Source of the DNA: Bacteroidales bacterium
GTDB lineage: Bacteria; Bacteroidota; Bacteroidia; Bacteroidales; NBLH01
Reading direction: 5' to 3'
Assembly (NCBI GenBank): GCA_016937695.1
Contig: JAFGWC010000004.1
Coordinates: 1-64,000, forward strand
Length of the DNA stretch: 64,000 nucleotides
This document shows, piece by piece, positions 8,077 to 30,494 of the stretch. A program made the translations under genes and the position numbers. The notes beneath the pieces are model-generated. The model was not told the origin of the DNA and made no database searches. It saw nothing but the letters and a program-made list of their open reading frames with translations. Every line of letters begins with the position of its first letter. Position 1 is the stretch's first letter.

Positions 8077-8122
8077 TGGGTAATTGGTAATTGGTATATT
8101 AGTATATTAGTAATTGGTAATT
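8077..8122. repeat. AT-rich dispersed repeat (taattggtaat type)
   Basis: Tandem words taattggtaat and tatattag. This is the reverse complement of the phrase found at 1-53, and a shorter copy, gggtaattggtaattttt, follows at about 8175-8191. It starts directly after the terminator. Confidence 0.6.
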
Positions 8123-8429
8123 AAAAAATATCATCATTCAATATTCAATATTCATTATTCGATGTTTTTTTATGGGTAATTGGTAATTTTTAATTCGTAA
8201 ATCGAGAATTGTAAATCGCAATTCGTTAATAGATCATCTTATTGAGCCAATTGGGGTTCTTTTGTGGGAATTAGTTTAAATAATGATTCTTACTAAATCT
8301 CTGAAATTATGAGTTAAAAACTTAGTAAGTAATTAAAGACTTGCTAAGTCTATTTTAATGCAAAAATCAAAACTTTGTTTTCGCATTAAAGTATTTTTTT
8401 ACTGCCAACAAAAGCTCTCCTTTATATTT

Positions 8430-8590
8430 TAAATTATTTAGCTGATTTAAAACATAATGCCTATAATTAACCGTTCAATAATTTCTGACTTTAACAAATA
8501 AAATAAGAAATTCAAAAAAAAAAGATAAATTTGCAATTAATAAAAAAACGTGTAACTAAATTGGAAATAGACACAATGTAGTTACATAAA
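8430..8590 (+). repeat. dispersed element, copy 1: promoter-like box plus hairpin
   Basis: Bases 8525-8587 match 29043-29105 at 59 of 63 positions without gaps, and a weaker similarity extends about 90 bases upstream (GCTGATT, then gttcaataattt words). The conserved part contains TAAATTTG (8526-8533, an exact -7 box). It then carries a 14-bp stem (8550-8563 / 8574-8587, one mismatch and one G-T pair) around a 10-base loop. It ends about 40 bases before the NADH dehydrogenase start, so it probably supplies that gene's promoter and leader. Confidence 0.65.
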
Positions 8591-8628
8591 TATTACTTCT
8601 AAAAGTAAATATAAATCAGAAAATAAAT

Positions 8629-9879
8629 ATGGATGTTAAACAAAAAATAGTAATTGTAGGAGGTGGATTTGCCGGTTTACAATTAGTTCGAAGATTAGAT
8701 AATCGTTTTTTTGAAATTATACTTATCGATAAATTAAATCATCATCAATTTCAGCCATTATTCTATCAAGTAGCAACATCTCAAATTGAGCCGTCAAGTA
8801 TTTCATTTCCATTGCGTCATATTTTTAGAAAAAGAAAAAATGTAATGATTAGATTGGCTGAAGTTTTAAGTTTAGATTTAAAGAAAAGCATAATAAAATC
8901 GAGCATTGGTGAATTTAAATACGATTATCTAGTTCTCGCAATGGGATGTAAAACTAATTTTTTTGGCAATAATGAAATCAGTAAATATGCATTTACATTA
9001 AAAACTACTTATGATGCAATAACAATAAGAAATCATATTCTTCAAACATTTGAAGATATTATTTCTGCAAACGGAATTGAAAAGGAAAGTTTAATGAATA
9101 TCGTCATTGTTGGTGGCGGACCAACAGGCGTTGAGATGGCAGGAGCATTTTCTGAAATAAAAAAGAATATTTTACCAAAAGATTATCACAGAATTGATTT
9201 TTCGAAATTAAATATTTTTTTAATAGAAGGCAGTAAATATCCACTAAATAGTATGAGCAAAACAGCCAAAAATGCTTCAAAAACTTATTTGCAAAAAATG
9301 GGTGTGGAGCTTTTAACCGAAAAATTTGTTGTTAATTACAATGGCGAAATTTTACAATTAAACAATGGCGAAACAATAAAAACAAAAACTGTAATATGGG
9401 CAGCAGGAGTTACCTCAAATACTATTGAAGGTCTTCCGGAAAATAGTTTGGCTGCTGGCAATAGAATTAAAGTTGACAGAATAAATAAAATAACAGAAAC
9501 CGAGAATGTATTTGCAATAGGAGATATAGCATATATGGAAACGCCTTTATATCCAAAAGGACATCCGCAATTGGCTAATGTTGCAATTAATCAGGCCAAA
9601 AATTTAGCCAAAAATCTAAAAAAAATAATAGAAGGTGAAAAAACAAAAGATTACGAATATAAAGATCTGGGCTCAATGGCAACACTTGGAAGGAATAAAG
9701 CAGTTGTTGATTTGCCGTTTATTAAATTTAAAGGTTTTTTTGCTTGGATAATTTGGATGTTTTTGCATCTAATGCTTATTTTAAGCGTAAGAAACAAGCT
9801 TATTATTTTTATAAATTGGGCTTGGGCATATATTACAAAAGATACTTCATTGCGTTTAATTTTAAAAGGCAACAAGTAA
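8629..9879 (+). CDS. ndh: type II NADH:quinone oxidoreductase (NDH-2)
   Basis: Single-subunit, non-proton-pumping, FAD-containing NADH dehydrogenase of 416 residues, peripheral on the inner membrane. Two Rossmann motifs are present: GGGFAG (residues 11-16) for FAD and IVGGGPTGVE for NADH. FYQVATSQIEP after HHQFQPL and WAAGVTSN, FAIGDIA and HPQLANVAINQAKNLAKN are characteristic. The C-terminal hydrophobic stretch (FFAWIIWMFLHLMLIL) anchors the enzyme to the membrane. It regenerates NAD and feeds menaquinone. Its presence beside oxygen-sensitive enzymes suggests a facultative or microaerobic lifestyle. It is monocistronic, with the dispersed promoter/hairpin element immediately upstream. Confidence 0.92.
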   Translation: MDVKQKIVIVGGGFAGLQLVRRLDNRFFEIILIDKLNHHQFQPLFYQVATSQIEPSSISFPLRHIFRKRKNVMIRLAEVLSLDLKKSIIKSSIGEFKYDYLVLAMGCKTNFFGNNEISKYAFTLKTTYDAITIRNHILQTFEDIISANGIEKESLMNIVIVGGGPTGVEMAGAFSEIKKNILPKDYHRIDFSKLNIFLIEGSKYPLNSMSKTAKNASKTYLQKMGVELLTEKFVVNYNGEILQLNNGETIKTKTVIWAAGVTSNTIEGLPENSLAAGNRIKVDRINKITETENVFAIGDIAYMETPLYPKGHPQLANVAINQAKNLAKNLKKIIEGEKTKDYEYKDLGSMATLGRNKAVVDLPFIKFKGFFAWIIWMFLHLMLILSVRNKLIIFINWAWAYITKDTSLRLILKGNK

Positions 9880-28961: not shown

Positions 28962-29107
28962 GATTAATTTATTTTGCTGATTATAAACTAATATCTATAT
29001 TTAATTGTTCAATAATTTTCTGTTTTTCAATAAATAAAAACAATAAATTTGCAATTAATAAAAAAACGTGTAGCTAAATTGGAAATAAACACAATTTAGT
29101 TACACAA
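28962..29107 (+). repeat. dispersed element, copy 2: promoter-like box plus hairpin
   Basis: Bases 29043-29105 match copy 1 (8525-8587) at 59 of 63 positions. TAAATTTG lies at 29044-29051. The hairpin arms are 29068-29081 and 29092-29105 (14 bp, one G-T pair) around a 10-base loop, more perfect than in copy 1. Weaker similarity reaches upstream through GCTGATT and gttcaataattt words. It lies 280 bases upstream of a methyltransferase gene. Confidence 0.65.
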
Positions 29108-29384
29108 CCTTTCCAATGCACTAAAACCAACATTCTGCAATATCATAAAGATTTTTAATTTTGATTCGTATATTTGAAGAAATTTTTAAAATATTCATGA
29201 ATCAAATATCCTTATATATTAAACCGATGGCGAACGGAGACATTGAATATTTTAATAATGATGTGATTATTAAAATTGAATATCCATATTAAATCACACC
29301 TTAACGGAACAAGTATACAATAAACATTTGGCAAAATTACATTAATTGTCTTTACTTTGTAAATTGTGAAAATAAATTTTAAAA

Positions 29385-30494
29385 ATGCAAGAAAACGAAT
29401 CAGGATTAATATTTACAGTTTCGGGAAAAAAAATACAAGTTAATCGTCCGCAGCCTATTATTTCGGATATTGATGTGGTTTCATACAAGCGTAGAATGGA
29501 TCCTCAAATAGCTGTTGAAGCGCTTGTAGAAGGACACAATGTTTTAATCGCCGACTTTTACAGTAGCGGACTTGCCGTTTTAAACGAGCTAAAGAAATAC
29601 GTTAAAAATAAAAATTCAGATCAATCATTTCAAGGTCAGCGAGATTTTCGTTCTGTATTTCGCGAACTTTCGCATCGAATATTATTATTTGTCAGCCATA
29701 ATAAATTAACAGTAAGGAAAGCACCTGTAATTGGCTGGTTTTCAGTTTTATATCCCGAATTAGATGAGTTTTTATTGCCATTTCCTCAAGTTCAAGGATT
29801 AAACAGCTCATGGCAATGGTACGAAAAAGGAATTTCTATTCCGGTTTTAAATAAAAAAATACATCCATTTTTTGGAACTTATTTTCCCACACGATTCGAA
29901 CATTTGACACTTTTTGATAATTGGTTAAAAAAATATAATGGAGAAAAAAAATCAGCCATAGATATTGGTATTGGTTCTGGAGTTCTTTCTTTTCAGATGT
30001 TGAAATATGGTTTTGAGAAAATTTATGGAACGGATTCTAACCCTAACGCCATTTTTGGTTTACATGAAGATTTGAATAATACTAAGCTAAATTCTAAAAT
30101 AGAATTAATGCATGGTAATTTGTTTGCCGATTTCGATTTCAAGACGGAATTAATTGTATTTAATCCGCCATGGCTTCCTGCTTATCATAATATGGAAGGC
30201 TTAGATAAAGCTATATATTACGATTCTAATTTGTTTCCGCAGTTTTTCGCTGAAGCAAAAAAGCACCTTAAAGAAGATGGGAGAGTTGTTCTTATGTTTT
30301 CAAATTTGGCACAAATAACTAAAGTCAGTGAGTTTAATCCTATAGAAGCAGAATTATTAAAAGGCGGACGATTCCAAAAGGAAATATTTATACAAAAAAA
30401 AGTTAGTGAGGCTTCAAAAAAAACACGAAGAAATCAAAATTGGCGTAATTCTGAAATGGTAGAATTGTGGGTGTTGAAAATGCGTAATGCTTAA
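29385..30494 (+). CDS. class I SAM-dependent methyltransferase (NPPW type)
   Basis: A 369-residue protein whose second half is a Rossmann methyltransferase. Motif I is AIDIGIGSGVLSFQML (SAM binding), an acidic residue follows in YGTDSNPNA, and motif IV is FNPPWLPAYHN, the N/D-P-P-Y/W motif of enzymes that methylate exocyclic or amide nitrogens (N6-adenine, glutamine, guanine N2). The N-terminal 190 residues have no recognised domain and probably bind substrate. This layout fits RNA or release-factor methyltransferases of the RlmG/PrmC type, but the target cannot be fixed. The final segment KKTRRNQNWRNSEMVELWVL is strongly basic. Confidence 0.8.
   Translation: MQENESGLIFTVSGKKIQVNRPQPIISDIDVVSYKRRMDPQIAVEALVEGHNVLIADFYSSGLAVLNELKKYVKNKNSDQSFQGQRDFRSVFRELSHRILLFVSHNKLTVRKAPVIGWFSVLYPELDEFLLPFPQVQGLNSSWQWYEKGISIPVLNKKIHPFFGTYFPTRFEHLTLFDNWLKKYNGEKKSAIDIGIGSGVLSFQMLKYGFEKIYGTDSNPNAIFGLHEDLNNTKLNSKIELMHGNLFADFDFKTELIVFNPPWLPAYHNMEGLDKAIYYDSNLFPQFFAEAKKHLKEDGRVVLMFSNLAQITKVSEFNPIEAELLKGGRFQKEIFIQKKVSEASKKTRRNQNWRNSEMVELWVLKMRNA

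Follow-up and report, generated by a model that had tools for sequence, protein, structure and literature searches.

Integrons are usually described as carrying one attI site beside one integrase gene, and in the integrons of Treponema this site lies 3' of intI. Archaeal attI sites have also been described directly downstream of intI (PMC9668308). Cassette arrays that lack an integrase, defined by their attC sites, are known as CALINs (PMC9024848), and class 1 and class 2 integrons have in addition attG sites, which are strongly diverged from both attI and attC, and delta-attI cassettes, in which delta-attI replaces attC inside arrays (PMC12901181). Complete integrons have rarely been reported in the Bacteroidota, for which IntegronFinder 2.0 names one, that of Salinibacter ruber (PMC9024848). 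A literature search of partial journal coverage, which is no proof of novelty, turned up no account of orphan attI sites that have leaders.

The window analysed here is a stretch of 64,000 nucleotides from the genome of a Bacteroidales bacterium, and it holds two copies of a short element that, judging from sequence comparisons, are probably orphan attI-like copies of this genome's integron insertion site, with a shared leader of about 100 bp. We prefer an attI-like reading for two reasons: an integron-type recombinase gene has one further copy on its 3' side, and in relatives this position is occupied by an attI with cassette arrays after it. The features of the window are listed below; the bar in G|TT marks the crossover place, C5, C35, C63 and C10 are other contigs of the same genome, and R1 is a model built from five copies of the element, whose recovery at E <=4e-12 is by construction.

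8430..8525, + strand: leader of copy 1, AT-rich, starting near TTATTTAGCTGATTTAAAAC; alignable at about 75% with that of copy 2.
8526..8533, + strand: possible Bacteroidota -7 box TAAATTTG of copy 1, identical in copy 2.
8550..8592, + strand: attI-like core of copy 1, GTGTAACTAAATTGGAAATAGACACAATGTAGTTACATAAATA; aligned with the copies on C5, C35, C63 and C10; folds; R1 E 4e-12 (by construction).
8592/8593: crossover place of copy 1, A|TTAC where attI has G|TT.
8629..9879, + strand: NDH-2 type NADH dehydrogenase gene (Pfam Pyr_redox_2, NDH2_C), listed as a downstream neighbour of copy 1.
28962..29043, + strand: leader of copy 2 (TAATTTATTTTGCTGATTATAAAC...), homologous to the leader of copy 1.
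29044..29051, + strand: possible -7 box TAAATTTG of copy 2.
29068..29108, + strand: attI-like core of copy 2, GTGTAGCTAAATTGGAAATAAACACAATTTAGTTACACAAC; identified by alignment and fold; R1 E 5e-19 (by construction); followed by CTTTCC in place of attI's ATG|TT.
29385..30494, + strand: methyltransferase gene (Pfam MTS/PrmA), about 280 bp downstream of copy 2 and solely its neighbour.

As with the attI of integrons, the copy on C5 has a recombinase gene next to it and G|TT at its end, and homologous sites in relatives precede different cassettes that obey the rule relating R'' to the cassette 5' end. Unlike an integron attI, the copies in the window are solitary, come with their own leader and no longer have G|TT; a further difference is that the recombinase has no IntI-specific insert. 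The cassette arrays that lie away from an integrase gene at two sites in Kordia (L252, L254) resemble CALINs or degraded integrons, but the orphans described here are attI copies, several per genome and some with a common leader. The likeness to attG and delta-attI cassettes is that these, too, are integrase targets besides the main attI, whereas the present elements are near full-length relatives of attI, dispersed in the chromosome.

A first-pass annotation of the window had noted a dispersed repeat that combines a promoter box with a conserved hairpin. The repeat is real: copy 1 (8525-8589) and copy 2 (29043-29107) match over 65 gap-free bases with four substitutions (E ~2e-25 in the window), in otherwise unrelated intergenic DNA, and this match is enclosed in about 150 bp of weaker homology that includes, upstream, some 80 bp at about 75% starting near TTATTTTGCTGATT. 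Equally real is the 14-position stem, which joins 8550-8563 with 8574-8587 in copy 1 (DNA fold -7.4 kcal/mol, z -4.8) and 29068-29081 with 29092-29105 in copy 2 (-9.5 kcal/mol, z -5.8), none of the shuffled sequences folding as well as either. When the folds of the copies were compared, this stem was absent from those on C35 and C63, and the hairpin was rejected as a conserved feature of the element; with no Rfam model at the gathering threshold in the window, this argues against the small-RNA family that had been proposed. As to the box, TAAATTTG is indeed present at 8526 and at 29044, 16 bp ahead of the stem in both copies, and the leader could be a promoter, but TAnnTTTG is as common in the window as chance predicts (137 observed versus 132 expected), so that on its own the box carries little weight, and it is altered to TAAATTTA at C63 and to TTAAATTA at C35. 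The position of the box, the strong stems of both window copies and the 40 bp that separate copy 1 from the NDH-2 start codon would all suit a dispersed promoter with a 5' leader hairpin, be it a mobile promoter or an RNA-stabilising leader, unrelated to recombination. We think this unlikely, given the absence of the stem at C35 and C63, the altered and commonplace box, the ~280 bp between copy 2 and the next gene, the lack of any ORF >=60 aa downstream of C35 up to its contig end, and the presence of one copy 3' of a recombinase gene at the end of a contig. Low-complexity GTAATTGGTAATT repeats occupy intergenic positions 8080-8240 ahead of copy 1, and similar repeats occur at C35 and C10.

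At the crossover place the window copies read ATA|TTAC (copy 1) and ACC|TTTCC (copy 2), neither of which has G|TT. No recognisable cassette follows either copy, an attC covariance model finds no attC in the window, and a test for R'' after the two copies gave 2-mismatch matches only, by eye no better than chance. Given the loss of G|TT together with the lack of a recognisable cassette, the window copies are probably unoccupied or decayed; most likely they are unoccupied, decayed sites, and copy 1 may now be a plain upstream region of the NDH-2 gene with a possible influence on it.

The first-pass annotation had named an absence of further copies as part of what would refute it. Such copies do exist: a search of the whole genome (3.95 Mb, 159 contigs) found four or more besides the two of the window, located at C35:14560, C5:1-66 (minus strand), C63:1476 and C10:73184, as well as a half copy at C5:3137. 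The C10 copy scores E 0.006 with model R1 and is also a 44-bp, 98% match to C35. A leader related to that of copy 1, TTTATTTTGYTGATT, occurs at C35 and at C5:3204; it is not beside the C5 attI, a point against the attI-like reading. G|TT is kept in the copies on C5, C10 and C63. Contig C5 ends at ...GTTACACAGATG|TT and contig C10 at ...GTTACACAAATG|TTA, in each case exactly at the crossover of its copy (ACAGATG|TT and ACAAATG|TTA, respectively), as would be expected if the sequences after attI differ between cells or loci. The C63 copy, intact at ...CACAATTG|TTAGC, is directly followed by a 125-aa ORF that has no convincing attC, the best R'' match having 3 mismatches. In the assembled genome no attC was found (best E 0.87), and contigs C5, C10 and C113 stop where arrays would start.

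A dispersed element of ~150 bp in more than four copies also recalls a MITE, as had been suggested, or the end of an insertion sequence. In the copies read, whose ends are fuzzy, neither terminal inverted repeats nor any clear target duplication could be seen. The element has no transposase partner; the enzyme associated with it is instead a tyrosine recombinase, which in relatives is accompanied by cassette arrays, and a MITE or insertion-sequence origin is extremely improbable. Both the element and the recombinase were absent, at the thresholds used, from six genomes of the same genus, and these gave no empty site for comparison: the methyltransferase was absent at the threshold used, and NDH-2 had relatives in two genomes only, 43-68% identical. 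The leader pattern TATTTTGYTGATTWAA is enriched but not specific (33 matches versus 13 for the reversed control). Among the matches listed for the short pattern GTGTAGCTAAATTG in viral contigs there were apparent chance matches and the pattern was discarded; the Kordia attI core had no match in viral contigs. Three side observations concern other places in this genome: 46-bp-spaced repeats TTGGGTAAGTAATCACATAG between the half copy and the recombinase gene of C5 (L031 2958-3107), a ~21-bp unit, CGCCGCTAAACTGTTTACATA, repeated in tandem ahead of a 234-aa gene on C10 (L280 256-522), and a weak element-like site just after a gene and followed by TTTTG|TTAGCC (C99:6561-6604, near 1500 of L287; E 0.3), which could be another decayed attI.

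The recombinase gene of C5 (C5:54-1160, minus strand) encodes 368 aa, and the C5 copy of the element lies directly 3' of it, after the stop codon. Its product is an integron-type tyrosine recombinase that matches both XerA and integron integrase models, yet scores 178.8 bits against TIGR02249, below the cut-off of 265; in the nine genomes tested no canonical IntI exceeded that cut-off. Residues ~209-244 of IntI4 (about 36 extra) are unmatched in the C5 protein, which thus has no IntI-specific insert near patch III, and the integron-type recombinases of the nine genomes align with the integron model as two separate segments, positions ~180-238 being missing. The domain missing here has been described as necessary for integron recombination (PMC9668308). 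From the missing insert and the failure to pass the cut-off, the arrays in these genomes appear to be served by a recombinase without the IntI-specific insert. Another contig, C113 (L034 1-2082), encodes a second recombinase of 649 aa with two tyrosine-recombinase-like halves and ends at ...GACG|TT, 3' of that gene; it is possibly a second integron.

Kordia, Algibacter and Muricauda are among the bacteria that encode homologues of the recombinase. On the 3' side of the gene, in four Kordia genomes as well as in other Bacteroidota, the G|TT of the site is followed by small-gene cassettes that differ from one another; in Kordia the site is conserved up to G|TT and diverges beyond it. For most sites tested, the 5' end of the cassette and the R'' of the attC behind it are complementary with 0-1 mismatches in 10 positions, a score that few or no shuffled controls reached; at one site (L190) there was no R'' match in the 2.5 kb searched, and the first attC, which lies beyond, reads GTTGCCAAC. 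The attC covariance model, made from 12 sites with a hand-set structure (a first model had no base pairs), gave 28 sites at E < 0.001, its own 12 included. By these sequence criteria the recombinase-adjacent loci of the relatives are integrons in which attI lies on the 3' side of that gene. At three places in one Kordia locus (L204 12850, 15354, 18683) attC sites continue into a motif, GGTAACCGTTGCRCAA, that is repeated and lies close to transposase-like ORFs; it may belong to an insertion sequence with attC as its target. The Bacteroidales MAG GMC10 has a recombinase 77% identical to that of C5, followed by an attI, GAAATAAACgCAAT...TTACACAGATG|TT, that can be aligned to the window element; the cross-species match of the attI model to it is modest (E 0.03). 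Of the features by which an attI is recognised, homology to a qualifying site is thus found in the window copies, through this alignment, that with C5 and model R1; adjacency to a recombinase gene is found outside the window, at C5 and in relatives, as are attC cassettes in Kordia and others, and no recombinase gene adjoins copy 1 or copy 2. It is very unlikely that the elements are lone attC sites, the ends of cassettes. The stem GTGTARC...GTTACAC does resemble short R''/R' boxes, but the window has no match to the attC model, the leader has no 5' end complementary to R'', and by position the crossover in C5, C10 and C63 is a later ATG|TT or TTG|TT, not AG|TTACAC.

Attachment sites that stand apart from a recombinase gene are also present in relatives. 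In the four Kordia genomes, searched with one attI query, we counted as orphans those attI copies that had no recombinase match within 1.5 kb. Several of them have complete cassettes: L246, L248, L252 and L254 have R'' matches with 0-1 mismatches, and modelled attC sites follow the last three. L251, L253, L255 and L258 had no R'' match in the ~1.4 kb searched, L251 having a modelled attC further downstream. Most Kordia orphan sites lie between unrelated flanks, and no turnover of cassettes at one syntenic site could be demonstrated. Two orphans of GMC10 (L263, L264) have in common a leader of ~100 bp that is particular to them and contains TAACTTTG or a close variant of it; L264 had no R'' match. 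How such sites arose is where a further explanation enters, in which each copy is the relic of a whole integron platform with a recombinase and cassettes of its own, of which attI alone survives; it shares the attI identity with our preferred reading and differs in the history. The 3' end of the recombinase gene is kept at L245, L246, L248, L251 and L255, and those orphans, some only, that keep the last recombinase codons are plain remnants of decayed integrons. The other Kordia orphans have no such tail, nor do copies 1, 2, C35, C63 and C10, where there are shared non-coding leaders instead, and for the elements of this genome we therefore find a platform origin rather doubtful.

Under the preferred reading, that of orphan attI-like sites, the 368-aa recombinase would join a circular cassette, through its attC, to attI at G|TT, and would act in trans on sites such as those of the window; the leader common to the copies would be a promoter, and a cassette would land just downstream of it and be expressed from it. 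The homology of the copies, the copy 3' of the recombinase gene, and the attI-cassette arrays and cassette-bearing orphans of relatives support this reading. Against it stand the want of G|TT and of a cassette at both window copies, of any attC in the genome itself, and of a cross-species attI match better than E 0.03.

More tentatively, the Bacteroidota may possess a type of integron in which a recombinase without the IntI-specific domain acts in trans on several attI sites that are scattered, carry leaders and serve as landing pads, and searches that require a canonical IntI may miss such systems, since the recombinase has no insert and reports from the Bacteroidota are few. If such a type exists, cassettes would be captured and expressed at many chromosomal places, and orphan attI sites that receive cassettes in trans would give a genome several expression sites for captured genes.
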